From the NCBI RefSeq assembly GCF_003856975.1, contig NZ_CP033107.1:2480001-2544000 (forward strand): a DNA stretch of 64,000 bases, written 5' to 3'. Source of the stretch: Plantibacter sp. PA-3-X8 (GTDB lineage Bacteria > Actinomycetota > Actinomycetes > Actinomycetales > Microbacteriaceae). Shown piece after piece: positions 40,277-63,674 of the stretch. Both the position numbers and the translations under genes were made by a program. Each line of letters opens with the position of its first letter. The stretch's first letter is position 1. Under the pieces are notes generated by a model, which searched no databases, was not told the DNA's origin, and saw only the letters and a list, made by a program, of their open reading frames with translations.

Positions 40277-41331
40277 GCGCGTGGTTCGGCTTGGACCGCG
40301 AGTTGGTCGAACGCCTCGTCCGCGGACTCGGCGGCCTGGAGTCGGTCGAGGCCGCGGGTAGTCCTCGCGCGGATGGAGGTGCCGAGCACGTCTCGGTGGC
40401 CGACGACGACGTCGGCAACACCGGGATCCGGGCGGCCTTCGCTCGGGCGGCCTGGACAATGATCGCCGAACCGGGCGATGGCGTGGCCGGGCTCGTGGTC
40501 GGTGCGCTCGGCCCTGCGGGCGCACTCTCAGCGGTCCTGGAACGGGTGGGGCCGACCGAACTGCAGCGCCGCATCCTCGGCAGCGAGTGGTCCAGTGGCT
40601 CGGGCTCGACGTCGGCCGATGCCGATGCCGAGTCCGAGGATCCCGCCGCGATTCCCGCCTCCCGCGTGCTCGGAAGTGCGCTGGAACGCTGGCGCCCCCG
40701 TCTCGTCTCGGCTGACCTCGTCGCCGCGTGCGAGACCGCGATCGAGGTCGGCGTACGACTACTCCTGCCAGGCGATCCGGGCTGGCATGCGGGGTTCGAC
40801 CACCTCGGTGTGCACGCGCCGCACGCCCTCTGGCTACGCGGTTCTCCCGACGTGCCTGCGGGGGAACGCGCCATCGCGTTGGTCGGGGCCCGGGCCGCGT
40901 CCGGGTACGGCGAGCACGTCACCCTCGAGGCGGCGGCCGGGCTCGTCGATCGGGGCTTCGCGATCGTGTCGGGTGCCGCGTACGGCATCGACGGCGCGGC
41001 GCACCGAGCCGCCCTCGGGAGCGGAGGCCCGACCGTGGCCTACCTCGCAGGCGGGGTCGATCGGCCGTACCCAGCCGGTCACGATGCGCTCATCCGTCGG
41101 ATCCGCGAGGCCGGTGGAGCCGTCATCAGCGAATCACCGTGCGGGTCGACACCATCCAAATGGCGATTCCTGCAGCGGAACCGACTCATCGCCGCAGCCT
41201 CGGCTGCGACGGTGGTCGTGGAGGCCGGAGACCGCTCCGGGTCGATCAACACGGCGGGTCAACCGAAGGGGCTATCGTTTGGGTGTCTGTCCCGTAGGCA
41301 AAAGCTGGACAGCTGCGACCGCCGCGTCTGA
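40273..41331 (+). pseudogene. dprA: dprA, 3'-truncated by accessory DNA
   Basis: DprA loads RecA on incoming single-stranded DNA. The N-terminal part and most of the Rossmann-like DprA fold are intact (ALVGARAASGYGEHVTLEAA, SGAAYGIDGAAHRAAL, RNRLIAAASAATVVVEAG). The conserved RSGSxNTA motif is reached (RSGSINTAGQ, ending about 41265) and then similarity stops. About 20 unrelated residues (PKGLSFGCLSRRQKLDSCDR...) precede a stop. The missing end should include the last fold strands and the C-terminal winged helix. The break marks the left end of the accessory region. The remaining 352 aa might still be expressed, but activity is doubtful. Confidence 0.85.
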
Positions 41332-41457
41332 CGACTGGCTGGCGTCTGCCCAATCGCCCGGTCTATCTCACCGGGGCCAGGCTCTCTGGATGATCTCAGT
41401 GCGAAAGAAGGTTGTCGTGCCATTCGGGCTTGCGTGCCGCGTCCAGGTGTCCGTCCA

Positions 41458-41700
41458 CTAGGAGGCTGGGGCGTTCGCCGACAGGCGTGTCGGGACCGTC
41501 CCGTTCGGGAACACGACAGTGCGCGTGAGGGTGCCACCGGCGATCAGGTCGAGCTGCAGATCGAACCACTCCCAGTGAGCAGATGAGTAGGATCGGTGGG
41601 TGTGGTCCAAGACCGCGTCTCGCGTGCGCCGAGATGGCTGAACGTTCCGGCGCAGCGCATCGATCGCACCGACCGGGCGTGTCCCCGGCAGATTGCTTGG
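41458..41700 (-). pseudogene. C-terminal remnant of an unidentified protein
   Basis: The minus strand is open for about 80 codons without ATG or GTG near its upstream end, and stops at TAG 41458-41460. Third positions are GC-rich and the residues look protein-like (HWEWFDLQLDLIAGGTLTRT, VVFPNGTVPTRLSANAPAS). It looks like the 3' end of a gene whose start was removed when the neighbouring cassette or island arrived. Family not recognised; could be chance. Confidence 0.3.
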
Positions 41701-41717
41701 GGCCGACCGCTGCCCTG

Positions 41718-41723
41718 TAACCT
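41718..41723 (+). promoter_or_regulatory. -10 box of the four-gene cassette
   Basis: TAACCT ends 6 nt before GTG 41730 and 12 nt before ATG 41736. The first spacing fits a leaderless GTG start. Confidence 0.45.
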
Positions 41724-41729
41724 ACGAGG

Positions 41730-42335
41730 GTGCACATGAGCGTAGAAGAAGGTCAACCAACTGGAAGGCACGAAACGGAGCTCGCGAATGCGGTTCTGGC
41801 CTGTCGTGAGGAGTTCGCGGCCAAGTTCGCGACTTACGGGTACTCCTGGGCAATTCTTCGAGTGCCGTCGCTAGTTGATCGAGTGTGGACCAAAGCTGCG
41901 CGTATCCGGCGCCTCGAGGAGCTCGAGTCCCGTGCCGTAGAGCCGCGCATCCCGGAGGATGTGGAAGCAGAGTACCGCGGGGTAGTCAACTACTCGGTGA
42001 TGCTATTGGATAGGCTCGACCACGAAGGTTTGACCGCCCCCCGCCTTGGATCCCCTCCCGCAGACCGGTGGGCAACGCCTCAGCGAGCAATGGCAACCTA
42101 CGGGTCCATCACATCGGCGACTCGCGAACTGCTTGAACGTAAAGACCACGACTACGACGGCGCATGGAAGTCAATGCGTGTCACGACGATCACAGACGAA
42201 GTCTTAGTGCGAGTATCGCGAGTGAACTCGATTCTTGACGGTAGTGAACCTGATTCAGCAGTTCTCCGTGACCAGTTTCAGGACATCTTGAACTACGCGT
42301 TGTTCGCGATCGCGTTGCTATCGGTGAAGGAGTAA
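41730..42335 (+). CDS. Duplicated DUF1599-like protein
   Basis: A 201-aa all-helical protein made of two similar halves. Half one has YGYSWAILRVPSLVDRVWTK then NYSVMLLDRL; half two has YDGAWKSMRVTTITDEVLVR then NYALFAIALL. This Y-G-x-x-W-x-x-x-R ... D ... R ... NYxxxxxxxL pattern resembles DUF1599, a family also discussed as a nucleotide-modification-associated domain in phage and bacterial loci. Base composition is below that of the core genome. It opens a cassette whose genes overlap or lie 3 nt apart. Start could be GTG 41730 (leaderless) or ATG 41736. Function unknown; binding of a nucleotide is a hypothesis from family context. Confidence 0.65.
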   Translation: MHMSVEEGQPTGRHETELANAVLACREEFAAKFATYGYSWAILRVPSLVDRVWTKAARIRRLEELESRAVEPRIPEDVEAEYRGVVNYSVMLLDRLDHEGLTAPRLGSPPADRWATPQRAMATYGSITSATRELLERKDHDYDGAWKSMRVTTITDEVLVRVSRVNSILDGSEPDSAVLRDQFQDILNYALFAIALLSVKE

Positions 42336-42338
42336 CCC

Positions 42339-42980
42339 ATGGCCCGTGGTCCAGTAGAGGACGGCTGTCGATTCTGTGAGCTGCCGGACCAGGATCGGGT
42401 ATTGCAGTTGGATGATTCGTTCGCGATCATGTTTTCGCTCGGGCCACTCATCCCTGGGCATTTTATGCTTGTCGCGCGTGACCACTATCCAAGTTCAGCG
42501 GAACTACCGCCATCTCAGATCCCGAAAACTAGCCGAGTCATTCGTCGGATATTGGACGAATTATCGGACCGATTCGGCGAGTTTACTGCATTCGAGCATG
42601 GTCGAGCTGGTGCCTGCGTGCCGCCAGGGCACGGCGAGGACCACTGTTATCACGCACACGTTCACTTTCTTCCCAAAAATGTTGACCTAGCGGCGAGCGT
42701 TCGGGACGACTACGAGCTGATCAGTTTCGATAGCTGGGCATCGTTTCAAGCACAACATTCTGAGCACCCCGTACCTTACATAGCGGTCTGGGAAGGCGCC
42801 GCCGTGCATGCAGTTTTTGATCCTTCAAACCTACCGCACCACTATCTTCGAACAAAGGTTGCGACAACTCTAGGAGAGCCCTTGCTCGGAGACTGGGTCG
42901 CCTTTCCCCGATCGTGGGATATCGATACCGCGAAGGCAAGCCACGTTTTTGAATTCCTGCGGAAGGTAGACCTGACATGA
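42339..42980 (+). CDS. Histidine-triad (HIT) superfamily protein
   Basis: A 213-aa HIT-fold protein. The triad is H105-A-H107-V-H109 (CYHAHVHFLP), the nucleotide-alpha-phosphate-binding and catalytic motif of HIT hydrolases and transferases. The N-terminal CRFC (C10, C13) fits the zinc pair of many HIT proteins, and PGHFMLVARDHYPSS fits the family's central strand-loop. About 80 residues follow the triad, longer than in Hint proteins. Expected chemistry is cleavage or transfer at a nucleotide phosphate; substrate unknown. Many A/T third positions set it apart from core genes. It overlaps the next gene by 4 nt. Confidence 0.8.
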   Translation: MARGPVEDGCRFCELPDQDRVLQLDDSFAIMFSLGPLIPGHFMLVARDHYPSSAELPPSQIPKTSRVIRRILDELSDRFGEFTAFEHGRAGACVPPGHGEDHCYHAHVHFLPKNVDLAASVRDDYELISFDSWASFQAQHSEHPVPYIAVWEGAAVHAVFDPSNLPHHYLRTKVATTLGEPLLGDWVAFPRSWDIDTAKASHVFEFLRKVDLT

Positions 42981-44278
42981 AGAATTGGCTGCTACACGCC
43001 TTGGTCGGACAGAAGATCACCCGGGAGTCCTTCGATTCGTCTATGCAGGCGCTGGTTTCGCTCCGAGCGAGCACGTTCCACCTTGACCGAGTATCTGGAC
43101 AGGGCGGGTGGTACCGCAGACTGGGCGATCCGGGTCGATTGGGGCACGTCGCGACCGCTCAGATGACGATCTTCGCGTTGGCTGCTCCTGACAGCGAGAT
43201 TCAGTTCCAGGCATGCCTAAAGTTTCTCCTGGGTAGTCAGGCGTCCGATGGAGGCTGGCCCTTTGTGACCAATTCGGCCGGCCAGTCAGTAGTGGACGCC
43301 ACTGGTTGGGTATTGCTGGCTGTGTCCGAGATGTACGACCGGCCGTCCCTTAATGCGCACCGGGCGAGTATGCGTGCGGCGATGGAACGAGGACGTAAGT
43401 TCATCGAGGCTTCGGAGCTGCCTGCCGGTGGCTGGGGCATTACGCCGGGTGCCGATTGGCGAGCGCTGAGCACAGCCATTGCCCTTCGGGCCCTGATCTC
43501 GCTGGGTGACGATCTGTCAAACCCGACCATCGATTCGGCTGCGCGAAGCCTGGTGAGCAAAATGGATCCAAACACGGGCGCTTGGTGTGATTCGCGCGGC
43601 AACCTTTCTATCGCGGCATCTGCAACGTCGGCGATCGCTTTGCAGCAAGTAAATACAAACGGCGCATTCGAGGCACCCATCAAGCGCGCTGAAAGATGGC
43701 TTGCTGACGTGCGAGAGCGTGATGTCTGGGGCGAGAAATCGAAGTACGTGTCCCACGAAGAGGTAGACTTTCTCGATGCCGCAGGTAATCGGTCAAGGGT
43801 CGAATACCACTTCTCCAGACGCCCTCACGCGATTGCTGCGTTGTGCAGAGAAGGTGTTGGGCCAGAGGTTTGCGATGGTCTGACGCACCTCCTATCAGCG
43901 CCTGCGGACAAGCCGCAGCAGTGGGGTGGTTGTAGCCAGCATGCCTGGACGAGTTGGTTAGTTTTTGACTGTTGGAATGCTCTCAGCTCCGCGCAGGCTA
44001 AACTCGGGCCAGATTGGCGAGAAGTCTGGTGGTCGCCCGGTAGGGTAGTTGTCTCATTGCGAACCGAGCGCTTCCCGAAAACGCTCGGGCGACGCTACTG
44101 GCCACATCTTATCGTTCTGGCCCTCGCCGCTTTTGTGGTCTGGGGCGCTGCGTCCAGTGGACTCGTTGACGGCATTGGCCCCCAGACGGTGACATTCGTT
44201 GTTACGACGATTCTCCTCGCTGTGCTAGCTAACCTGATCTCGACGGCAATACTTGACTGGCAGAGGAAGAAAACATGA
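42977..44278 (+). CDS. Alpha/alpha-toroid (terpene-cyclase-like fold) membrane protein
   Basis: A 433-aa protein with prenyltransferase/squalene-cyclase-type repeats: LLGSQASDGGWPFVT, ELPAGGWGITPG and KMDPNTGAWCDSRGN, each followed by long helices. No DxDD protonation motif of squalene-hopene cyclases is visible, so terpene cyclisation is not supported. Two membrane helices close the protein (HLIVLALAAFVVWGAA and VTFVVTTILLAVLANLIS), with a short basic cytoplasmic tail. It overlaps both neighbours by 4 nt and so is made in step with the HIT protein and the small last protein. Could be an anchored sensor or effector; catalytic role unproven. Confidence 0.65.
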   Translation: MKNWLLHALVGQKITRESFDSSMQALVSLRASTFHLDRVSGQGGWYRRLGDPGRLGHVATAQMTIFALAAPDSEIQFQACLKFLLGSQASDGGWPFVTNSAGQSVVDATGWVLLAVSEMYDRPSLNAHRASMRAAMERGRKFIEASELPAGGWGITPGADWRALSTAIALRALISLGDDLSNPTIDSAARSLVSKMDPNTGAWCDSRGNLSIAASATSAIALQQVNTNGAFEAPIKRAERWLADVRERDVWGEKSKYVSHEEVDFLDAAGNRSRVEYHFSRRPHAIAALCREGVGPEVCDGLTHLLSAPADKPQQWGGCSQHAWTSWLVFDCWNALSSAQAKLGPDWREVWWSPGRVVVSLRTERFPKTLGRRYWPHLIVLALAAFVVWGAASSGLVDGIGPQTVTFVVTTILLAVLANLISTAILDWQRKKT

Positions 44279-44769
44279 CGAAACCGATCTACGGACATGC
44301 ATGGGGACTCATCGAGGCCGGGTTCTCCGGGGAACTTGCGGCCCAGTCGCCGGAAGACCTGCATCAGGTGATCGTTCAATCGCCTGACCGACTGGCAAAA
44401 GCGTTCGATTCGCTGCCGACCTGCGACCAGAGTGCCCTGCTCTCGGAAGTGTCAAATCTGTCGACCAGCTTCATCGAATCAAGCCGGTCCACCTCACCGG
44501 CGGCTTCCGTTCTCCACGAGGAGTTGGCCGAGCCGGCACCTCTAGGGGAAAGCAGGCCTAGAGCTTCGATGTCGAAGGACGATGCTGTGCGGGCAACAAT
44601 GCATCTCGTCATCGGGTCGATTCTGCTTAGACGTGCCCTCACCATCATGCAGGATCCTGCTACCGGCGACGCTATTAGCTCCGCCGTTCAACTGAAGGGT
44701 GTGGATGAGAGAGTCGCGGCTCGCTTCTACCACTTCGCGGCATCAAAAGGGCTTGTCCCATCCGAATAG
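44275..44769 (+). CDS. Last gene of the four-gene cassette, unknown
   Basis: A 164-aa soluble protein with no recognised domain. The N-terminal third is helical (GHAWGLIEAGFSGELAAQSP); a Ser/Pro-rich linker follows (residues ~68-95); the C-terminal part is predicted helical (AVRATMHLVIGSILLRRAL, VDERVAARFYHFAASKG). The start overlaps the toroid gene stop (ATGA). No cysteine cluster or HTH pattern is evident. Position suggests a partner or regulator of the membrane protein. Confidence 0.6.
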   Translation: MTKPIYGHAWGLIEAGFSGELAAQSPEDLHQVIVQSPDRLAKAFDSLPTCDQSALLSEVSNLSTSFIESSRSTSPAASVLHEELAEPAPLGESRPRASMSKDDAVRATMHLVIGSILLRRALTIMQDPATGDAISSAVQLKGVDERVAARFYHFAASKGLVPSE

Positions 44770-44831
44770 CGCCAACGTGTGATGCATAGTTCGTCTATCG
44801 GATCGACGTTCGCTCCTCGAGTGCCTGCTCG

Positions 44832-45053
44832 ATGCATCCCCCTGAGCCGCTCAGTGGCGTGTGGCAGTTCATCGCCTGCATAGTCGCTGTGTCGTGCCAG
44901 GCATACGGCGTGCCGAAGGTTGAGCCGTTGGGTCCGACCTCCACTGGAGCGATGCACTCGCGTGACGAGGTCGATCTGGAAGCTGCCCATGCCGATTCTC
45001 GCCAGATAGCTCTGATAACTGAATTTATCGCGAGTAGCCTGTCGTCTGATTGA
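44832..45053 (+). CDS. Possible small protein, unknown
   Basis: A 73-codon frame starting at ATG 44832 or, with a more convincing coding look, GTG 44871 (MWQFIACIVAVSCQAYGVP). Codon choice in the second half resembles the island genes, but there is no clear ribosome-binding site or promoter and no family match. Listed as tentative. Confidence 0.3.
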   Translation: MHPPEPLSGVWQFIACIVAVSCQAYGVPKVEPLGPTSTGAMHSRDEVDLEAAHADSRQIALITEFIASSLSSD

Positions 45054-45359
45054 TAGGACAAGGTCCCCGCTCCCTTGCTCGGCTCACCACGAACTCGGAG
45101 CGCGACGACTAGGCGCCGAGCGCAGTCTTCAGTCCGCTTGGAGACATCCGGACCGGGCATCTCGCGCGGGCAGGTAGTTCGGCAAGGAAGCGCCCCGGAG
45201 TCCGTAGGCGCGACTCTAGTCCAACCGGACAATCCGAGGTCTCCCGGTGATTGCTGAGCATCTAGACGATGTGGCGGTGGCGGCCACCGTCCGTGCGGGA
45301 CCGGGAATCATCCCTAGGTACCTTGGGTCTCTGGCACGCGGAAGAGCTATGCTCACCAG
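45054..45359. other. Non-coding gap
   Basis: No convincing gene, hairpin or repeat seen. The right end carries the TATGCT promoter box of the next gene. Confidence 0.4.
45348..45353 (+). promoter_or_regulatory. -10 box of a leaderless promoter
   Basis: TATGCT ends 6 nt before ATG 45360, close to the host's own leaderless layout; supports the 84-aa gene being real. Confidence 0.6.
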
Positions 45360-45614
45360 ATGATGGATCATCTCTCGCTAGTGAGGCAGTTTACTGGCGC
45401 CGAAGAAGCGTGGGAGGCGCGGCGTCATCTGGCCTACCGTAACGTTTGCGCTCTTCGTAAGATCCCGTCCGACCAGGGCGCCAGCGCCGGGCAACATCGA
45501 TACTCTGTGTCGGTTGCGGGCGTCAACGCTGGATACACTGAGCGCACAGACACTAACGCTGTTCCGCCGGTCGAAGATGCGCTACGCGCAGTGTATTGGG
45601 GTGCGTTCGAATGA
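45360..45614 (+). CDS. Small unknown protein coupled to the next gene
   Basis: An 84-aa protein (MMDHLSLVRQFTGAEEAWE at the N-terminus, EDALRAVYWGAFE at the C-terminus). No family recognised, no membrane segment. It has its own leaderless promoter and its stop overlaps the following ATG (ATGA), so the two form a transcriptional and translational unit. Confidence 0.6.
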   Translation: MMDHLSLVRQFTGAEEAWEARRHLAYRNVCALRKIPSDQGASAGQHRYSVSVAGVNAGYTERTDTNAVPPVEDALRAVYWGAFE

Positions 45615-46651
45615 CCGTTTCTGAAGAGGTGCCAGCGTCGGACGAGTCGAGGGCACGCCAGTACTCACCTGTCGTGTCGATCTACCAGAACCCGGAGCAT
45701 GTTGCCGGCCTAGTTCAGCAGATCTTCAATGCGCCCCTTGTCACAAACGTGGTCATCGACACGGACCGCACGGACGAAGATAAGAAGAACCTTGATCTGG
45801 CAGCCTCCGCTGAGGCCGCAGGCGGCTTCAAGGTCCCGCTCGCCGGGGGTGTAGACGCGAAATTGGGGGCGAACGCGTCTCGGTCGAGCGGTACAGCGAT
45901 TACAACGAGTTCACGCTCCTCGCAGTCCTTCGTGTATTCCCAGGCCTACTACCTTGACCTTGTTAGGCAGTCGCTCCGCGACCGGGCACTCCTGGTAGAC
46001 CTTTCGGACGCAGACAGCGTTGACACCATGGCTATCGGAGACTTCGTTGAGTTCCAAGCCACTTTCACGGCGCCGGCGTTCCCGTCCATCATGGACGTTC
46101 TGACGCCAGATCTAGTTGGCGCGATCGTCGAATTCACGACTCGACGCTCCGGTCGCGACGGTATCGACTTCACGAACGTTGCAGGTCTCGCAGCAGCGGC
46201 GCAGGAGCTTGAGATGAAGGCATCTGCTCGAAGAGATCTTGCAGCTAGCGTGACGAGGGCGTTGCAGGCAGACTTCCGGCAAGAGCACACCCGAGAGTAC
46301 TACGGTGCGATCACTGGCGTTCCTGGCATCACGGCAGTCACGATTTGTGACGCAGACAGGTTCCTCGTCGAGGACGAAGACCGTGTTCTGGATGGTTCCT
46401 ACAGGGTGCTCGGTAAGGTGACGTCATTGCCTCGAGAAGACATGCCTGTCTTTGAGAGGAACAAGATGCTCAGTCAGATAGCGCCAGAGGCGGTAGACAC
46501 AATGCTCGGTCAGGTGAAGGGCCAACTCGAGTCCCAGACGCGAGGTCTGCCGATCGGGCAGGAGCAGATCGACGAGCTTATGCAGGTCAGTCTTGACTCC
46601 AGGGTTCCCGGAAGAGCCTTCCAGGTCATCCCCATCGCCATCTTCGTCTGA
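45611..46651 (+). CDS. Unknown 346-aa protein, possibly DUF6414-like
   Basis: The N-terminal part has SIYQNPEHVAGLVQQIFNAP followed by a Gly/Ala-rich region (AASAEAAGGFKVPLAGGVDA) and a Ser/Thr-rich segment. The C-terminal part has VLDGSYRVLGKVTSLPRED and a hydrophobic QVIPIAIFV end. The layout (tyrosine-containing start, glycine-rich hydrophobic middle, VxGKVT strand) is loosely like proteins labelled DUF6414, but I am not certain. No enzyme motif visible. Coupled to the 84-aa gene. Confidence 0.5.
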   Translation: MTVSEEVPASDESRARQYSPVVSIYQNPEHVAGLVQQIFNAPLVTNVVIDTDRTDEDKKNLDLAASAEAAGGFKVPLAGGVDAKLGANASRSSGTAITTSSRSSQSFVYSQAYYLDLVRQSLRDRALLVDLSDADSVDTMAIGDFVEFQATFTAPAFPSIMDVLTPDLVGAIVEFTTRRSGRDGIDFTNVAGLAAAAQELEMKASARRDLAASVTRALQADFRQEHTREYYGAITGVPGITAVTICDADRFLVEDEDRVLDGSYRVLGKVTSLPREDMPVFERNKMLSQIAPEAVDTMLGQVKGQLESQTRGLPIGQEQIDELMQVSLDSRVPGRAFQVIPIAIFV

Positions 46652-47894: not shown

Positions 47895-50800
47895 CTACAG
47901 CGAATCAGCGATGAATCCGCCATCCCTTGCGGCGTCGATGAGCGGTCGAGCAGCCTCTTCACCAGCTGCCGCCCGAATTGCGTCCACGAGTCTCGCGATC
48001 CTATAGCTTGTCGTGTGGCCTCGCGCGCTCGTGTTGCTGACCCGTTCGGCGAGGAACGCCAGGAGCGCAGTGCCGTGTGTATCGAGCGCATTCTGCGGCA
48101 GGTCGGGATGGAAGGACCGCTCGCTTAGTCCGATGTTGTGACCACTGAACAGTGTCGCCGCCGCGGACGTGAACCTACCAACAGCGGGGACAGCGTCGGC
48201 CCAACGGGCAAGTTCTTCCGGGGTCGCGACCCGCGGTTGACCGGTGAGGCGGCGTTCTGCATGCTTGCCAAGCCAGCTACGCCACACCTCGGCTCCATCG
48301 ACGCCATCTGACCGGATGAACCGCACTACGGTTTCCGCAAATGCGACGGCGTGTGCCCCGTCCGATGCGAGGACGATTTGATCAAGTAGTCGCCGTCTGT
48401 TTGCGGATGAGATGCCCGCGTAGGACACAATCGATGCAACTAGTCCAAGAAAGTTCTGTTGCAGCCTTGCGTCGTGTATCGCTTCGAGCCGCTCCATCTC
48501 GGCGAGGATGCAGTCCAGCAAGCCGGCCTGTAGAAGGTGGTCATTCCACCTGACGTGAAAGAGAAACGGGTACCAGCCAAACGCATGTCTCTCGTCATCG
48601 CGAAAGATTGGCAGCAGATGCGTGATCGCGAAGTCTTCATCAGCGGAGAAAAAGAAGAAGAGCTCTCCTGCGACAGCCGGTTGGGTGGCATCGAGAGAAT
48701 GCCGGTTGCCGCTGAGTAGCGCAACAAGGGCCTCAGATTCCTCGTCGCTGAGCCCTGCCCAGTCATCGCGATGGTGCCGCCAGCGTCGGTCAACTTCTGC
48801 ACCCCAGAACTGCGCAAGAAATCCAGGCCATGAGTTCATGTAGAGCGGCGCGAATGATAGCGGCGTCAAATCATCACTATGCGTGTAGGTCGCTCCCTGA
48901 GCCTCCCACAGGGCGCGCGCCAATATTCTCAGGGCCACAATTGAGGATGACTCCTCGAAGTCGATCCCTTGTCGGATCTGCTTCAGCAGGAACTGGCCGA
49001 TCGCGTGTGCAGAGTCACGATCATCGACCATTGAACGGACTCGATCGGCGGGACCGGTACCTAGAGCGGCGAGCTCGGCCTCGGCCCAGCCGTTCACGAT
49101 TGATCGGTGGAGATCGCCTTGTTGTGCGGCGAGGTCGCCACGACTGGCCACTACGTCCCATAGGTCCATTCCAAGATCGGGGCGGCGCTGAGTGGCGAGC
49201 GCGACGAGCTCGAGCGCATCAGACCAGTCGGGCTGTTCGAAGATTCGCTCAGAGTAGTCTTGAGAGAGCAACGCGTCGAGGGCGCCGGAGAGGTCCTCGT
49301 CGAGCCCGCGTATGAAGTCGTCGATGGGCATCGGTGGCGTACCGCCCCTAGTGCCGCTGGACATCCAGGTGTCGAAGTCAGGGTGTTCACCTGCACTGAG
49401 GTCAGGATTCTGCGCCTGGACAGAGTCCAATGCGGTTTGCGCCTCACTCCAATCTGGAGCGACCTGCGTTAACCATGCGAGTAGGTTCAACCTGGCAGAC
49501 GTGTGATGCCGGCCATGGTCCGGGAGATCCTCCGGGTAGCCGGGGCCGGCCTCGACAACGGTCAAGACACGCGCCTTGCAGCTTGGTGTTGCATTGGGAA
49601 CTGCAGCTTTGAGCACTTGATAAATCTCGTGCTTCAGGTTGTCCGCGTACAGGCCAGTTCGAGCGAGAACCCATTCAAGCTTCTCGTCATCGCTACGCAC
49701 GGGATCTGAAGCGACAAGATGCAGCGCGAGGCGCCGCATCAGTGCGCGGCCGACTTCCCACCACTCATCGGGTAGTGCGGGCCGAACTAGCAGCGCCTTC
49801 AGCCCGTAGTCGCGAAGGCCGTCCACAATCGCGTCGAGTGGTTCACGCATCCCATCTTGCGCGTGCGGTTCGATCGCCGAACGACTGAATGTCAAGGGAT
49901 CCCAACGACGCTCACCTCGGTAAGCCTCTAGGAGGTCGTATGCGCTCGTAAGTGCTTCTTGAAGAGCGCCTCCGAGCGACCGATCGCCCGCCGGAGCTGC
50001 CTCAACGCTGAGGCGAATCTGCTGCGAAAGTCCATGTTCGTCCGAGTTCCACGCGATACTGGCATCAGGCGGAACGGCGCGATTGTCGGACTCGCCGAGG
50101 TACCATCGTCGCTCCAAGCGGAGCTGGGGCCGCAGCGCCGTTCGCAGCACGGCCGTGCTGGGTGCCGCACCCTCGGACAAAAGGGGCGTCAGGAGGTCCG
50201 AAGTCAAAGGGGAGGAATGGCCCTGAATAGATGAGGATAGTACCACTCGCCAACGCCCTCCGGCAGTCGCATCTTCTCGCTCGAGCTCATCCATAACCCA
50301 CGTTGCGCTTTGATATAGCGAGCCCGCCATTGACTGTCCGAGGCGTTGCAACGTTTGCAGGGCTGCTCCGTTGAGGTCGGGCGACTGGATGAACGTTCGC
50401 GCGAACCAGTGCCCAAGGACGGAGGGCGCCTCTGTAACATCCTGGAGATTGAAGAGCGCCTTGAACTCGGGAAGATCTTCCAGCCAGAGCAACCAGTCGA
50501 GCTTGGCGTCGTCTGGCAGCGTGCTAATGGCATTAGCGAAGTCTAAGGCGCCTTCCTCGGTGCTTAGGCGTACCTGTAGGTAGTCGCGGTCGGGCAGCGG
50601 GAGCTTAGTACCGCCAGTGACGATAGCCTGCATCAGGGCCCTGTGCTCGGTTTGCTTCATCCGTGCGCGCTCGCCCCAAGCATCGAGTGCCGCTACCAGC
50701 GCGCCATGGTTGCGCCCGACAGCCGGATAAGCGATGGGTTGAATTCCGAGGTACTTCCACTTCGCGTCCGACGGGTCATTCGTAAAAGCGAAGCGCTGAG

Positions 50801-51464
50801 TGGCTTCGTGCTCGCCTTCTGATGGCAGTCCTAGAGCGAGGTAGCGCATGATCACGTCATCGTGGCTGTATCCGACGAATACCACGGTGAATCGTGCGAA
50901 CATAGACAGCAAGAATCGAGCTGCCCAGGCGTCGGTAATGTACGCGTGGCCGAAGTCGCGGTCCGTGAGGATCATCTCCTCCTTCGGGCGCAGCACCGAG
51001 CCGTGCAGATGGACAAGACCGGCGAAGTCTCGCCCAAGTGGCAATGCCGGCGAATGCCAGGTGTCAGGGATTGCCACGAGCGCTTCAGCAGCGGCCGATG
51101 CCAGGTGGTCGTCGTAGTTGGTAGTCACGACCCGGAAGGTGCTGCCCAGGCCGGCGAGAGAGATGATGGCGCGATGCAGTGAGTTGAACTTCGACTTAGG
51201 GTTGGCGATCAGCTCACGTGCGTGATGATGCACGTCGAAGTGCTGGGGCAGGGACTCCAGCTGCCCTACGAAGAAGTCCAACCCGCCGCGCTTGGAGAAG
51301 GGGTGAGCCGCACGGCGAGCGAGTTTTCTAGCGAGGCCTTCAAAAAGGGGGAGATTAGAAGGGCTCGCTAGTGATGCCCCTGCGCCGACAAAGAACACGA
51401 GTTTCCCCCGCTCATGAGCGTCAAGAATTTCGTCGGGCAGCTCTACATCACCGGTTATCCACAT
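47895..51464 (-). CDS. Large SIR2-domain protein, probable defence effector
   Basis: A 1189-aa protein with an N-terminal SIR2 fold: GAGAS (27-31), TTNYD (114-118), catalytic-type HLHG with His154, and FVGYSHDD. The remaining ~900 residues are helical and repeat-like, resembling the long C-terminal regions (e.g. DUF4020) of anti-phage SIR2 proteins, which deplete NAD+ on infection. Start ATG 51464 (MWITGDVELPDEIL) behind GGGGACC; the frame stays open further upstream but loses sense. Divergent from a membrane-associated gene at 51742 across 277 bp. NAD+ cleavage is inferred from the family and is not shown here. Confidence 0.8.
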   Translation of the reverse strand: MWITGDVELPDEILDAHERGKLVFFVGAGASLASPSNLPLFEGLARKLARRAAHPFSKRGGLDFFVGQLESLPQHFDVHHHARELIANPKSKFNSLHRAIISLAGLGSTFRVVTTNYDDHLASAAAEALVAIPDTWHSPALPLGRDFAGLVHLHGSVLRPKEEMILTDRDFGHAYITDAWAARFLLSMFARFTVVFVGYSHDDVIMRYLALGLPSEGEHEATQRFAFTNDPSDAKWKYLGIQPIAYPAVGRNHGALVAALDAWGERARMKQTEHRALMQAIVTGGTKLPLPDRDYLQVRLSTEEGALDFANAISTLPDDAKLDWLLWLEDLPEFKALFNLQDVTEAPSVLGHWFARTFIQSPDLNGAALQTLQRLGQSMAGSLYQSATWVMDELEREDATAGGRWRVVLSSSIQGHSSPLTSDLLTPLLSEGAAPSTAVLRTALRPQLRLERRWYLGESDNRAVPPDASIAWNSDEHGLSQQIRLSVEAAPAGDRSLGGALQEALTSAYDLLEAYRGERRWDPLTFSRSAIEPHAQDGMREPLDAIVDGLRDYGLKALLVRPALPDEWWEVGRALMRRLALHLVASDPVRSDDEKLEWVLARTGLYADNLKHEIYQVLKAAVPNATPSCKARVLTVVEAGPGYPEDLPDHGRHHTSARLNLLAWLTQVAPDWSEAQTALDSVQAQNPDLSAGEHPDFDTWMSSGTRGGTPPMPIDDFIRGLDEDLSGALDALLSQDYSERIFEQPDWSDALELVALATQRRPDLGMDLWDVVASRGDLAAQQGDLHRSIVNGWAEAELAALGTGPADRVRSMVDDRDSAHAIGQFLLKQIRQGIDFEESSSIVALRILARALWEAQGATYTHSDDLTPLSFAPLYMNSWPGFLAQFWGAEVDRRWRHHRDDWAGLSDEESEALVALLSGNRHSLDATQPAVAGELFFFFSADEDFAITHLLPIFRDDERHAFGWYPFLFHVRWNDHLLQAGLLDCILAEMERLEAIHDARLQQNFLGLVASIVSYAGISSANRRRLLDQIVLASDGAHAVAFAETVVRFIRSDGVDGAEVWRSWLGKHAERRLTGQPRVATPEELARWADAVPAVGRFTSAAATLFSGHNIGLSERSFHPDLPQNALDTHGTALLAFLAERVSNTSARGHTTSYRIARLVDAIRAAAGEEAARPLIDAARDGGFIADSL

Positions 51465-51741
51465 TGATCCTGGTCCCCTCCCGGGCCCGTGCCGGGGCCG
51501 CGGACTGCATCGCCCCGCTTGGTCGGAGATCGCTGTCGACCCAACTGTTTCCGGCGAGTAAAGTGTACTCGCCGGGAATCGGCAAGAGTCACCTGTGACT
51601 CCAGTGGCTTCGTGTCCGCGTGCCACAACAGCAATTCGGCATGGCTCCGTTCGTGTCGTGCGCGGTGCGCAAACACGATGTGTAAAGCGCACCTGCCGGC
51701 CTCTCTCGACGTCGCGGATCGGAATCTGCTTGAGTATCATC

Positions 51742-52455
51742 ATGCCGTTCTCTGAAGTTCCCGAATCATCGCCCGTCAAGGGAGTAGTAACCGGAGCTGC
51801 TCTTGGTCTACTTGGCAATGTCCCTGTTGTCGGAGGCCTCGCCAGCGGAGCCCTCGCTGCAGCTGTCGCTGCAAAACAGCGCACTCGCGATGAGGAGTAT
51901 TGGGCTTGGACTGCCGCCAGAGTTACCCTCCTGGAAGCACGACATGGCCAGTTCTTCGATCCGGCGGACGATGAATTCCTCGCCGCTGTTCATCGAACAC
52001 TCCGAGCCGCGAGGGAGACGGCCGACCGGCAGAAGCGCCAGATGCTTGCTGAGGCTGTCGCCAACGCCGGAAGCTGGTCGACCACCGACCTCAACAGGAG
52101 AGAACGGTATTTGGACCTCATTTCGACCCTCACGCCAGGCCACATTCGAATTCTCCGATACCTGAGTTCGCCACAGGGGTGGTTTGCGAAGCATCGGCCG
52201 GAAGCGATCAGCGAGATCAGCAACTCGTACATGCAGTCCGTCGGGCAGGTGCTGAGCAGGTACTTTTTTGAGGGCGACGAGGAGTTGGCTCGGCGTGGTT
52301 TTGATGCCGTCAGCGACCTAGTGGCGGAAAGGCTCGTCCAGGTTGACCTCTCGACGATCGGGACAGGGCCTGGGGCGCTCGAGTCGCGGACAACGGCGGA
52401 TGGAGAAAGCCTCCTCAGCTTTCTAGGCGACATTGGAGAGGACCCCACCGCGTAG
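51742..52455 (+). CDS. Unknown protein with glycine-rich hydrophobic N-terminus
   Basis: A 237-aa protein. After a short polar start it has VVTGAALGLLGNVPVVGGLASGALAAAVAA, enough for one or two membrane-inserting helices. The rest is charged and helical (RTLRAARETADRQKRQMLAEAVANAG, RYLDLISTLTPGHIRILRYL). No family assigned with confidence. ATG 51742 chosen because upstream codons look non-coding. Being divergent from the SIR2 gene, it may be part of the same unit. Confidence 0.55.
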   Translation: MPFSEVPESSPVKGVVTGAALGLLGNVPVVGGLASGALAAAVAAKQRTRDEEYWAWTAARVTLLEARHGQFFDPADDEFLAAVHRTLRAARETADRQKRQMLAEAVANAGSWSTTDLNRRERYLDLISTLTPGHIRILRYLSSPQGWFAKHRPEAISEISNSYMQSVGQVLSRYFFEGDEELARRGFDAVSDLVAERLVQVDLSTIGTGPGALESRTTADGESLLSFLGDIGEDPTA

Positions 52456-52629: not shown

Positions 52630-54210
52630 ATGGACGAGCGCCTTCCCAGTGCATGGGTCCAGCGGCGCGACATCGTCGCACGACTCGCGAGCGGCGGCCA
52701 CACGGCTGCCATCGCAAAACTACTGGAGCTCTCGAGCGACGCCGATCAGGCCTTGATCGACGGCGAACTCGGAGACCTGCAGTGGTCTTCCCTGAAGTTC
52801 AGCTGTTCATCGCTACTCACGAATCTCGGTACTGATCGTCGCGACAGAGCCGTCATCACAGCCGGAATCGAATGTGCGCAGCAGATTCTCGACGACGAAT
52901 CTGTCCCTGAGTTCCGAGGAAACGTTGAGTACAACATCGCCAACGGGCTCGCCGCTTTGAACATGGTCGATCGGGAAGAGTGGCATACCGCTGAGCCAGA
53001 TGTCCCGCGCTCGGTCCTGGAGCTTCGCGACCGAGACCGGCTAAGGCGCGTGCGCTCGCTCTTCGCCAGGGTCGGGTACTCCGCCGAGCATGGCGACCTA
53101 CGCGCTAGGGCTCTTTGCAATCTTGGAAACGCTCTAGATCATTCGGGTCGATGGCTTGAGGCCTACCAGGCCTACGTTGACGCCCTAGCGGCCGATCCGA
53201 CGAACGGGAACGCGGCCGGAAACGCGGCCGAACTTCTGCGCATCAGAGCCGCCCGTGGGCGCGGTCTTAGCGGTCACTACGCCGCCGTATACGACAAGTA
53301 TCGCAAGCAAGCTCAGCAGCACCGTGCCCGGACTGTTGAGGTTGCGGGCGAAGAAGTAGCATGCCGATGGGACGCTCTCCCTCCATCCGGAAGTCAGGGA
53401 CACCTTTCTCATGACGGCAACGCGCTCGATGAGTATCAGCAGTGGATAAAGCGCCACCGTCTGGCCCTCACTGTTGCCGTCGAGGGACTCGGCTCCGACG
53501 ATCTGCGGTGGGACAGCGCGATGATCGAAGCCGTAAGTGTCGGCCAGGACACACCTGATCCGCCCTTGATCTTCACCTCCATGAACGTGCTCAAAGCTGA
53601 GTATCTCGTGGCCCGACGCCTTGCTTACGATGGTGAAACCCGGCTGACGGATTCGATGTTCGAGCAGGATCCTGCCGACCCGGGCACCTACGCGGATACC
53701 CTGGACCTTTCGATCTATGGTGAGCCGACGGCACAGCTCGTTCTCGCCCAGCGCGCAACTTTGGACCTCCTAGACAAGATTGCCGTCGCTGCGAACGACC
53801 ACTTTCAGTCCGGTGTTGAGCCTACCAAAGTGAACTTCTTCAACTATTGGCGCTTACGCGACGATGATCGACCTCGCGCGGAACTCCCAGTGCCCGACCA
53901 GATGGTGAGCGCCGCCGCAGCCCTCGCTGAATTGGCTTACGACATCGACGATGACGGAATGTACCCCGAGGCCAAGGTGCTGCGTAACGCCGGCACCCAT
54001 CGCCTCGTGCACGTGACACACCTTGCACCGACGGGCGTCACGAAAAAAGCTCACAGTAGTGTCGACGCGGAGGCGCTCATCCGAGCGACCCACCAGTCGC
54101 TTCGTGTTGCTAGGTCCGCCTATATCTATCTCATCGACCTTATCCAGGATCAGCAGGAGAGCATCGATGATGAGCTCCGCGTCTCGCTTCCGCTTCCACT
54201 TCAGTACTGA
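52630..54210 (+). CDS. TPR protein with C-terminal HEPN domain (LA2681-like)
   Basis: A 526-aa protein. The N-terminal half has tetratricopeptide-like helices (LRARALCNLGNALDHSGRW, AYVDALAADPTNGNAAGNAA). The C-terminal part carries the HEPN RNase motif Rx4H as R452-NAGT-H457. Architecture matches the LA2681-like HEPN family, predicted RNase toxins in phage-defence loci. ATG 52630 lies behind GGGAGAAG. Nothing downstream looks like its antitoxin. RNase activity is inferred from family. Confidence 0.75.
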   Translation: MDERLPSAWVQRRDIVARLASGGHTAAIAKLLELSSDADQALIDGELGDLQWSSLKFSCSSLLTNLGTDRRDRAVITAGIECAQQILDDESVPEFRGNVEYNIANGLAALNMVDREEWHTAEPDVPRSVLELRDRDRLRRVRSLFARVGYSAEHGDLRARALCNLGNALDHSGRWLEAYQAYVDALAADPTNGNAAGNAAELLRIRAARGRGLSGHYAAVYDKYRKQAQQHRARTVEVAGEEVACRWDALPPSGSQGHLSHDGNALDEYQQWIKRHRLALTVAVEGLGSDDLRWDSAMIEAVSVGQDTPDPPLIFTSMNVLKAEYLVARRLAYDGETRLTDSMFEQDPADPGTYADTLDLSIYGEPTAQLVLAQRATLDLLDKIAVAANDHFQSGVEPTKVNFFNYWRLRDDDRPRAELPVPDQMVSAAAALAELAYDIDDDGMYPEAKVLRNAGTHRLVHVTHLAPTGVTKKAHSSVDAEALIRATHQSLRVARSAYIYLIDLIQDQQESIDDELRVSLPLPLQY

Positions 54211-59528: not shown

Positions 59529-60476
59529 CTAGTCGACCAGTCGTCTGTACGCGGAGATCCTGTGGCCATCTGTAACGCGGTAGCTGAACGAAGGCGCCGA
59601 CCTGAGTGGCGCAAGCGGGCGGACGATCGCGCCGACCCGCATGTATCCGTGTTCCCAGCCGCCATGTTCGTACACTTGCGATGCCAGCTGGCGGCCGAAT
59701 AGCCCATTTTGAATGGGGCTGCTCTGTAGCGGATGACGTCTCGTCTCATGAGATGTGGACGCTCGTTGACGCCAGGCCAGATAGTCCGCGTATAGGCCGA
59801 GGACTGTGAAGCTCTCCGAAGCAAACTTCGGCTGCGCGTCAGCCCAGAACTCTTCGAATTCGTGGCTGCGATTGTAGGGAAGAGAATGGACGGGAACCGG
59901 GCGTGGAGCTCGCGTCTTGGAGGCCGCGTGGTGTGCTGGCCCCCGGCCTGAGCTCGTCCAAGGAAAGAAGGTCACTTGCATGTCGTCGACGACGTGCACG
60001 ACGAGCTTGACAGATCGTGTTTCCGACTCGAGGGCGAGAAGTGAGTCAGTGAGCTTCGGGCCGAAGGAGGGTGCGATGACCATGAGCATTTGTCGCGCAT
60101 TCATGTCGGCTGGAAGATCGCGACCGAAGCGCCTTCGGAAGGAGGCCTCGAGGTCTATGCGCGCGCGGTCTGCGGCCATCCTGATCAGGTCAGCTCTGCT
60201 CAGCGTCACGCACTGCCCCCAGTACCGCAGGATCTGCCCGACCACTTCGTTTGATGGGCTCGTCTTGCCCCACTTCAGTTCGATGAGGTAGATAGTTCCT
60301 TCGCGGTTGATCGCGAGCATGTCGATGCGCGAGAGATCTCGGAAGGGTATTTCGCACCCTATGAGGAGTAGCTCTTCGCCGAGTGGGGCGCCGACACGGG
60401 TGAGCAACTCGGCAACCGTGAGCTGCAGCTGAGCTTCTGTGGTGATCCTTTTGTTGGCGAACATGGGGCGGGTCAC
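59529..60476 (-). CDS. PD-(D/E)XK nuclease-like protein
   Basis: A 315-aa protein. The N-terminal ~130 residues look like the nuclease domain of NucS/EndoMS (DUF91) and related PD-(D/E)XK enzymes: SRIDMLAINREGTIYLIELKWGK with D52, E66 and K68, then VGQILRYWG. The C-terminal ~180 residues are not recognised and include many aromatic and basic residues. It starts at GTG 60476, overlapping the stop of the upstream DNA-binding gene by 4 nt. DNA cleavage is inferred from the motif. Confidence 0.65.
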   Translation of the reverse strand: MTRPMFANKRITTEAQLQLTVAELLTRVGAPLGEELLLIGCEIPFRDLSRIDMLAINREGTIYLIELKWGKTSPSNEVVGQILRYWGQCVTLSRADLIRMAADRARIDLEASFRRRFGRDLPADMNARQMLMVIAPSFGPKLTDSLLALESETRSVKLVVHVVDDMQVTFFPWTSSGRGPAHHAASKTRAPRPVPVHSLPYNRSHEFEEFWADAQPKFASESFTVLGLYADYLAWRQRASTSHETRRHPLQSSPIQNGLFGRQLASQVYEHGGWEHGYMRVGAIVRPLAPLRSAPSFSYRVTDGHRISAYRRLVD

Positions 60477-61645: not shown

Positions 61646-63133
61646 TTAGTCGCCGAATGAGCGGCCGCGATGCTTGTTCTCACCCTGCGGGTCTTCGAAG
61701 AGCTCAGGGAACCGCATTTTGCGCTTGCGCATGATCGACTCTGACGATTCCTTCGCACTTGCTGGCGCCGTCGGTTCCGTGGTCGTCAGCAAGTCCTGGG
61801 GGTCTTCGTTGACTGTCTCTGTGTGGGTGGTGGCTGGCCCTAGGAGCGGAGTGATGACGGGCGGCAACGACTCGGTCGCGAGCTCGCGTGTCGGCTCAGT
61901 GGATATGTGGGTGAACGTCTGCTGGAGTGCGAGGGATTCAGGGGCAGGCTCCTCGATCTTCGGCGGCTTATGCGTCCCGTGTAGTCGTGCTTCCTCGGCC
62001 TTCGCTGCGATGAACTCGGCGACTCGGCGATCGGTATCGGGGTCGAGCCGCGCACGGACCTCATCCATGGTCGCTCGGACACGATCGTCCATTGCGGCTC
62101 TGCGTGCCTTCGCGTCAGTAAGTGTCGCCGGCCGGGCTGGTTGGGCGTGAGGGTTGCTGACAGATGTGGCGTGCAGTCGTGCAAGGTGTGCGTCGTGGTT
62201 CTGCTGCAGACCTTGTTCGATGGCACCCATCTCGAACGGTGTGCCGAGCGTTGTGCACCGTCGGCGGTCGCTGGGGGAGGGGTCGGCGAGCGTGCCATCA
62301 GGGTTCTCCCGCATCATGCCGTAAGAGATTCCTCGGCCGTTCTTGCCGCGTTGTGTGATCTGCACCGCGCGGGCGCGGCCGGCCTCGACGAAACCGGCCC
62401 AGTCGGTCGCTGCCGGGTCTTTGAGTGCTCTTTCGATGCTGGATCTCAGCACGGCGACGCTGAATGGCTCCTTCGTACGCGGTTCTCCGAATTCGTCTGA
62501 GATGTCGCAGTCCACTTCCCAGAGCAGGTGACGTTCGGCTTCGTAGAGCTCGGCTTCTTCGGTGGATGCGGATCGGCGGAGCCCGCTCCGTTCGCCGCGT
62601 TCTCGGCGTTCGGTGGCGTCTGAGAATGCCTGTTTGAGGTCGGCTCGTTGCTCGAAGCCGTTGGCGTCGAGGACGCGCTCGTGGACTTCGACGAGGCGTG
62701 AGTGCATGACGACGCTGCTGTTGAGGCTCTTCCCTGTCGATTTCTCGATGCTGTTCACGACGATGTGGTTGTGGACGCAGCCGGTCTTGCCGTCGCGTTG
62801 GGTTACAACGAGTGCTTGGCGTCCAGGGAAGGTTTCCTCGGCGAGGGCTCGGCCGAGTTTCTGGGCGGTCATCCACGCGTCTGGTTCGTTGGGGTCGAGC
62901 TCGTTCTTCGCGAAGCTCTCGATGACGTGATATGCGTGGACGAACGCGCCTGGCCGGTCTTTGCCCCATTTCTTGCGGACGTCGCGCATCTGTTGCTTGG
63001 CGAGCGAGACGAGAAGCCCGCCGACGCCTGATGCCATGACGTAGCGCTCGCCTTGCTGCCCTGGCTTGTCGTTTAGCGCGTAATTGATGAGTGCGTCCGC
63101 TGAGCGTGTGGCGCTTGCCACGACGACGGGCAT
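61646..63133 (-). CDS. MOB relaxase
   Basis: A 495-aa relaxase/mobilization nuclease of the MobA/VirD2 type. Motifs: VHAYHVIESF (H66, H69) and the metal-binding VHNHIVVN (H121, H123); the nicking tyrosine is probably Y18 or Y31. The C-terminal 250 residues are hydrophilic with acidic and Pro/Thr-rich stretches. ATG 63133 shares its first base with the mobC stop (TAATG). With MobC it would nick the transfer origin and lead one strand into a conjugation channel; no channel genes are in the window, so the element looks mobilizable rather than self-transmissible. Confidence 0.85.
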   Translation of the reverse strand: MPVVVASATRSADALINYALNDKPGQQGERYVMASGVGGLLVSLAKQQMRDVRKKWGKDRPGAFVHAYHVIESFAKNELDPNEPDAWMTAQKLGRALAEETFPGRQALVVTQRDGKTGCVHNHIVVNSIEKSTGKSLNSSVVMHSRLVEVHERVLDANGFEQRADLKQAFSDATERRERGERSGLRRSASTEEAELYEAERHLLWEVDCDISDEFGEPRTKEPFSVAVLRSSIERALKDPAATDWAGFVEAGRARAVQITQRGKNGRGISYGMMRENPDGTLADPSPSDRRRCTTLGTPFEMGAIEQGLQQNHDAHLARLHATSVSNPHAQPARPATLTDAKARRAAMDDRVRATMDEVRARLDPDTDRRVAEFIAAKAEEARLHGTHKPPKIEEPAPESLALQQTFTHISTEPTRELATESLPPVITPLLGPATTHTETVNEDPQDLLTTTEPTAPASAKESSESIMRKRKMRFPELFEDPQGENKHRGRSFGD

Positions 63134-63654
63134 TAGCTTGCATCCGAGCGTGGCGGGAAGCCTCGGCTTACGAGGATCGCGATGCGTCGTTCGATGTCGT
63201 CAGGGACAGCGCGCATGTCCGCGACGCCCTCGAGGGCTTCCGCGATCTGCGTGGCATTGACCGGATCGCCCATGTTGAGTCGCTTCGCGATTTGGTTCAG
63301 ATTGCCGCCGATGTGAGCGACGTGATTGCGGATCGGTGAGAGCTCGTAGCCGAGCCGATCCGAGACCCAATCCAGGGTCCAGCGCGACGTGTCTGGGCCG
63401 GCGCGCTCGATCGCTAGGGCTCGTGCTTCGACTTCGGCGGTTGCTTCCTTGTCGGTGATCAGTAACCGAAGCGCTTCGCTGAAGGAGACCTCTTCGAGGT
63501 CGCGCCCGGAGGATGTAGCCAAAGCTCGCCGCACGTCGTCGACTGCTCGTTCCTCGCTGTCCGTGAACCGGAGTGTGCGGCGCTTCGTGAAGTTGACGGC
63601 CTTCTTCCTTGAACGCTTCGGCGTCGCTTCGCTCGCCTCATCGTTCGTCGTCAT
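63133..63654 (-). CDS. mobC: MobC-family relaxosome protein
   Basis: A 173-aa accessory mobilization protein. It has a basic N-terminus (KRSRKKAVNFTKRRTLRF), an RHH-like region, and the MobC signature VAHIGGNLNQIAKRLN. It helps open DNA at the transfer origin for the relaxase. Start taken as ATG 63654 (MTTNDEASEATP); an in-frame ATG four codons upstream exists. Coupled to the relaxase gene. An inverted repeat starts 20 bp upstream. Confidence 0.85.
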   Translation of the reverse strand: MTTNDEASEATPKRSRKKAVNFTKRRTLRFTDSEERAVDDVRRALATSSGRDLEEVSFSEALRLLITDKEATAEVEARALAIERAGPDTSRWTLDWVSDRLGYELSPIRNHVAHIGGNLNQIAKRLNMGDPVNATQIAEALEGVADMRAVPDDIERRIAILVSRGFPPRSDAS

Positions 63655-63674
63655 CAGTCCGTCCACTTCACTCG

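Follow-up and report, generated by a model that had tools for sequence, protein, structure and literature searches.

Analysis of a 64,000-nucleotide stretch of the chromosome of Plantibacter sp. PA-3-X8 (contig NZ_CP033107.1, positions 2,480,001 to 2,544,000, hereafter the window) centred on a cassette of four genes, P1 to P4, of which the second and third encode a divergent HIT protein and an alpha-toroid protein. The key observation was that this HIT-toroid pair is operon-like and recurs in two distant bacteria, with alternative C-terminal modules on the toroid. The swapping of these modules suggests that the toroid is a sensor/effector protein. The reading that we favour, with rather less than even confidence, is an abortive-infection type of unit, with a membrane-damaging toroid gated by a nucleotide signal that the HIT protein, and perhaps also the DUF1599 protein encoded by P1, controls.

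All four genes lie on the + strand and were assigned as P1, a tandem DUF1599 protein (41730..42335), P2, the HIT protein (42339..42980), P3, an alpha-toroid of the SQHop_cyclase_C type with two C-terminal hydrophobic helices (42977..44278), and P4, an orphan of 164 amino acids (44275..44769). The tight joining described in the first-pass annotation was confirmed, with intergenic gaps of 3, -4 and -4 nt, and the sequence makes ATG 41736, which GAGG precedes, a more probable start of P1 than GTG 41730. The foreign look of the cassette was also borne out, with a GC content of 0.547-0.588 and a third-position GC content of 0.547-0.648 in P1-P4, compared with 0.718-0.725 and 0.809-0.853 in yifB and the 5' part of dprA. 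A promoter scan of 41200-45600 detected no sigma-70-like sites (1.0 expected in shuffles), and as there was no site upstream of P1 either, the scan is uninformative on operon structure.

The second occurrence of the pair was found on a contig of Pararcticibacter amylolyticus (Bacteroidota; locus L010), which was reached through the HIT query. Here a HIT gene (1870-2511) is followed by one for a 622-aa toroid protein, in the same order and with the same 4-bp overlap as in the window, and pairwise BLASTP gave 34% identity over 189 aa for the HIT proteins (E 5e-40) and 26% over 321 aa for the toroids (E 4e-16). In place of the membrane helices of P3, the C-terminal part of the L010 toroid is a PNP_UDP_1 domain (9.7e-9) that matched the PADLOC model 'Effector PN-superfamily' at 4.5e-33 over residues 336-608. 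The relative thus matches a known effector class of the cyclic oligonucleotide-based antiphage signalling system (CBASS), whereas P3 of the window has no PADLOC match and carries two hydrophobic helices. The fused domain also matched models of ordinary MTA/SAH nucleosidases, below cut-off at 1.1e-12, and, weakly, the hopanoid-associated phosphorylase model HpnG (0.0093). Matches to the L010 protein occurred in 22 plasmid records, all over the C-terminal part among the matches listed, and in both of the two records examined the phosphorylase adjoins a CBASS oligonucleotide cyclase. A common scaffold that ends in one of several modules, here a hydrophobic and there a nucleoside-cleaving one, is the pattern of sensor-effector proteins in nucleotide-signalled immunity, as in CBASS generally. 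No P4 or DUF1599 gene was present among the open reading frames listed downstream of the pair at L010; the contig begins 1.9 kb upstream of the HIT gene, so a missing upstream gene is possible. Farther along, on the other strand, are an uncharacterised gene, an ORC-CDC6-like gene, an HD-CE gene and one that reads, judged from the sequence, as a DNA cytosine methylase. A toroid (P0003) and a HIT protein (P0008) retrieved by the protein searches share a source with the same longest contig of 6638 bases, and on this ground probably constitute a third HIT-toroid pair.

P2 exceeded the cut-off of the Pfam HIT family (PF01230) by a narrow margin (1.7e-4; 22.6 bits, cut-off 21.5) and, having both this domain and a HIT motif, falls within the HIT superfamily; the nearest solved structures by profile were likewise HIT proteins (best E 2.7e-5). 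The histidine triad H105/H107/H109, previously read from the sequence alone, proved to be conserved without exception across an alignment of 13 sequences that contains P2, as were an N-terminal CxxC and an EHG motif. A tree of the HIT proteins contained several very long branches and was used for no conclusion. A protein search with P2 found five other relatives, one of them from Microbacterium xanthum (P0010). At 1e-6 a HIT match was found in 6 of 398 genomes of the family, the Plantibacter genome itself included; at 1e-15, 396 genomes of the phylum gave its own HIT gene and one partial match with an internal stop, and among 366 genomes of genus g3 only G097 matched, the M. xanthum HIT protein not being located there. 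No HIT relative was found in viral contigs, phage records gave two weak matches (5e-5 and 8e-3), and L010 was the one locus in the genome-contig collection.

The alpha-toroid assignment of P3 follows from a match to Pfam SQHop_cyclase_C (PF13243, 1.1e-8) and from a weak similarity to lanosterol synthase and squalene-hopene cyclase (best PDB E 7.2e-9). The two C-terminal helices proposed earlier were recovered both as hydrophobic stretches (residues 379-397 and 400-418) and as helices 366-393 and 402-432 of an AlphaFold2 model with a mean pLDDT of 74.8, lower in the C-terminal part (43-69). A protein search that scored no more than the 8000 candidates with the most shared words revealed three close relatives (P0002-P0004) with 50-58% identity, each of which also aligns with P3 over the C-terminal hydrophobic region. 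A DxDD acid motif is defining for squalene and terpene cyclases. When P3, P0002-P0004 and the L010 toroid are aligned, only the middle one of the three Asp residues, D107, is kept, so that none of the five aligned toroids has the full motif and cyclase activity is unlikely. Searches with the toroid of 297 genomes of the order and 396 of the phylum (E<=1e-12) found it in its own genome only, and plasmids, viral contigs and, with the toroid as query, the genome-contig collection gave no match.

The duplication of DUF1599 in P1 was upheld by a Pfam match in two stretches (PF07659, 1.7e-30) and by the alignment of the two halves of six family members to each other (hhalign E 1.2e-18); an AlphaFold2 model built from an alignment of 2 sequences was all-helical (pLDDT 72.2). 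A link of DUF1599 to nucleotides had been proposed as well. The assignment as a nucleotide enzyme rests on the Pfam name and gene context; identification as a PRA-PH-type pyrophosphohydrolase was unsupported by a profile comparison of 8 DUF1599 with 6 PRA-PH-like sequences (hhalign E 0.29). P1 relatives occurred in 14 records of the plasmid collection, and contexts were taken from five of these. Two tiny Blattabacterium plasmids (L007, L029) have DUF1599 beside the beta subunit of ribonucleotide reductase (RNR) and dUTPase, in the Parabacteroides and Bacteroides records tpiA and folE are nearby, and in that of Bacteroides only one gene separates it from ndk; a Prevotella record is unannotated. 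The RNR beta and dUTPase neighbours support a deoxynucleotide-related role for the family. DUF1599 relatives were also found in two Chryseobacterium phages; viral contigs searched with P1 alone gave none, and an alignment led by Bacteroidota sequences gave one (L045). P4 remained, as first described, a small protein of no recognised family, with no significant match in family scans and only itself recovered by the protein search (1 of 114 candidates).

The cassette had been taken to be the first cargo behind an island boundary, and this was established by a split dprA and an intact site in a sister species. The left end of the element lies inside dprA at 41261, the last base that matched the empty site of the sister genome G510 in BLASTN of the dprA flanks, the exact crossover not being resolved, and the cassette starts ~470 bp inside this end. 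The 3' part of dprA is found beyond the window at genome position 2553022 (window-equivalent 73022; L038 13022). In G510 the two dprA parts abut in an uninterrupted site. A dprA part was matched in all seven genomes of the genus, that of PA-3-X8 included, and the P2-type HIT protein was absent from all six sister genomes at E<=1e-6. Next to the right end, also beyond the window, is a serine recombinase gene (71495-72994; Resolvase 2.2e-16, Recombinase 4.6e-7), and the element further carries genes for a MobA-type relaxase (61646-63133) and a MobC-like protein (63133-63666). With these genes and the split in dprA, the element is a serine-recombinase integrative element of ~31.8 kb and is probably mobilisable. 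Its other cargo includes a DUF6414 protein behind the cassette on the same + strand (45596-46651; E 4.5e-17). Dsr1-like matches were obtained for the N-terminal parts of two long SIR2 proteins, one on the strand opposite to the cassette (47895-51884) and the other on the strand opposite to the first (67662-71357; L038 7662-11357). A PDC-S11-like candidate (59529-60476) matched the PADLOC candidate PDC-S11 at 4.1e-22 with no Pfam family, and a TPR protein with an LA2681-like HEPN domain (52630-54210; 2.7e-35, no PADLOC match) is a possible further defence gene.

Under the abortive-infection reading, infection would change a nucleotide-type ligand, with the toroid as the sensing part and the C-terminal module as the killing part. 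Release of the module by the toroid would then lead to membrane damage by the two helices in Plantibacter and to depletion of purine nucleosides in Pararcticibacter. The HIT protein might make the ligand or, more likely, remove it as an off-switch, the tandem DUF1599 protein could act on or sense dNTP-type nucleotides upstream, and a role of P4 as regulator or inhibitor would be a guess. The first-pass annotation had suggested a defence or stress unit with a nucleotide link and action at the membrane. As a defence unit it has become more likely, because in the Bacteroidota occurrence of the HIT-toroid pair the toroid is fused to an effector domain of CBASS type, and because two SIR2 proteins whose N-termini are Dsr1-like are encoded on the element. 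The evidence for defence consists of a single locus in another phylum, the match to an effector there and the mobile, defence-like setting here. The expectation that all four genes would recur together was not borne out, the HIT and toroid genes alone recurring, at one locus.

A number of observations weigh against a defensive role. None of P1-P4 matched a PADLOC model at E<=1, the match at L010 belonging to the fused domain of a relative and to nothing in the window, and no nucleotide-signal synthase was detected among the proteins scanned. One independent HIT-toroid locus (L010) was examined, close relatives of the toroid are rare, and no other HIT-toroid locus was found to have DUF1599 or P4 as well. 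The retention of D107 means that enzymatic activity of the toroid is still possible, and looser HIT relatives at four loci (L004, L005, L006 and L017) lie in biosynthesis-like clusters with class V aminotransferases.

CBASS with a PNP-type effector (Cap17, type III CBASS) resembles the pair in that the L010 toroid bears the same kind of effector domain, but the remainder of that protein is a toroid, and the form in the window has hydrophobic helices in place of the phosphorylase. No match to CD-NTase, HORMA or TRIP13 was found in the four cassette proteins and three neighbours (Pfam, PADLOC). According to passages of PMC9122588, Cap17, an MTA/SAH-type phosphorylase, is required for protection by one CBASS. 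Thoeris type II (ThsA/ThsB/ThsC) shares a HIT protein beside a presumed effector as a plausible signal off-switch, a role hypothesised for ThsC in passages of PMC8565338, but the cassette genes encode no TIR protein detectable by Pfam scan. The SIR2 protein encoded on the opposite strand, 3.1 kb downstream, resembles chiefly Dsr1, with a ThsA match of only 0.0024, and P2 matched no PADLOC family at E<=1, it being unconfirmed whether that library includes ThsC. The nucleotide-modifying systems of DefensePredictor (PMC13092281) offer a further comparison, since DUF1599 is 'Nucleotide modification associated domain 1' (NMAD) in Pfam and a purine phosphorylase class appears both there and at L010. 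NMAD, MazG, dUTPase and purine phosphorylase domains are predicted as defensive in passages of that paper, which states them to be unvalidated; its text has no toroid, squalene or DUF1599, and the passages leave the NMAD type unspecified and contain no HIT domain. Among the literature matches listed (titles and beginnings of abstracts) none concerned a HIT-toroid system, an earlier description remaining possible, and passages of PMC8195603 and PMC10853773 hold nothing on one.

The wider HIT group, which reaches down to about 18-25% identity to P2, was examined at 12 loci (the window, L004, L005, L006, L010, L017, L018, L019, L022, L023, L043 and L044). L020, with a HIT gene beside what was judged from sequence to be an asparagine-synthase-like gene, and L021, where the match lies inside a doubtful long frame, were left out. 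The 12 are not all independent, L005 being probably a damaged relative of L004, and L043 being close to L023. A DUF1599, PRA-PH or dCTP-deaminase-like gene stands in the apparent operon at 7 of the 12 (the window, L018, L019, L022, L044, L023 and L043), or 7/14 with L020 and L021 kept, L019 being included solely because its large protein is 45% identical to the L018 one, its own Pfam scan being empty. A class V aminotransferase or cysteine desulfurase occurs at six loci (from annotation at L004, L005, L023 and L043, with Pfam in addition at L043, and from sequence at L006 and L017), and a toroid at two (the window and L010). A Parabacteroides locus has the run Thy1, AAA ATPase with an IetA-like match, HIT and PRA-PH (L022 2346-7051). 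A trio of a HIT protein, a membrane protein and a ~811-847-aa protein was found in two genera of the family of Plantibacter (L018 6467-10185; L019 9528-13261) and on a Caulobacter plasmid (L044 5932-9588). The membrane proteins of L018 share 55% identity with L019 and 31% with L044, the large proteins 45% and 27%. Two of the three loci have a PRA-PH match, and on these comparisons the trio may be a second, separate system around the same kind of HIT protein.

These neighbourhoods bear on two other explanations. The adjacency of loose HIT relatives to PRA-PH, dCTP-deaminase-like or Thy1 genes, the 7/12 loci counted above, and the RNR beta and dut genes that accompany DUF1599 on both Blattabacterium plasmids, with ndk near it in one Bacteroides record, would fit a nucleotide-sanitation or antimetabolite unit, in which DUF1599 and HIT proteins remove abnormal or phage-modified nucleotides, or shield the host, and the toroid is a mere membrane platform. 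Such a unit leaves the CBASS-type effector domain on the L010 toroid unexplained, and is considered unlikely. Still less probable is a small-molecule pathway, isoprenoid or sugar-lipid, in which a cyclase-like toroid enzyme would sit at the membrane and the HIT protein would be a nucleotidyl hydrolase or transferase of that pathway. Among squalene and oxidosqualene cyclases the toroid does find its alpha-toroid family, D107 is kept, P3 weakly matches the membrane family SCO2321 (5.1e-7, well short of the cut-off) and some HIT relatives lie in the aminotransferase clusters; however, P3 is a single short toroid with added C-terminal helices (a phosphorylase at L010), two of the three DxDD Asp residues are replaced, no prenyl-synthesis family was found among the neighbours scanned, and the fused phosphorylase matches defence effectors, though also, weakly, HpnG. 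That only the HIT and toroid genes form a unit, with DUF1599 and P4 as chance neighbours and the four-gene cassette no system, is the most doubtful proposal, for although neither gene accompanies the pair elsewhere, L010 included in its listed downstream frames, the tight spacing extends across all four genes and an upstream gene could be missing from the truncated L010 contig.

A more far-reaching reading, which we regard as unlikely, is that HIT-toroid modules constitute a nucleotide-signalled immune architecture of their own, in which the toroid would be a new ligand-sensing scaffold with either two membrane helices or a purine phosphorylase as interchangeable killing ends, the HIT protein would set the level of the ligand and the tandem DUF1599 would be an infection-responsive nucleotide enzyme. 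If true, a fold known from terpene cyclisation would serve as an immune sensor whose effectors can be exchanged, and the scattered HIT group near nucleotide-cleaning enzymes would be a searchable marker for further defence operons. DUF1599, which is found in several Bacteroidota records, would likewise gain a testable functional context.

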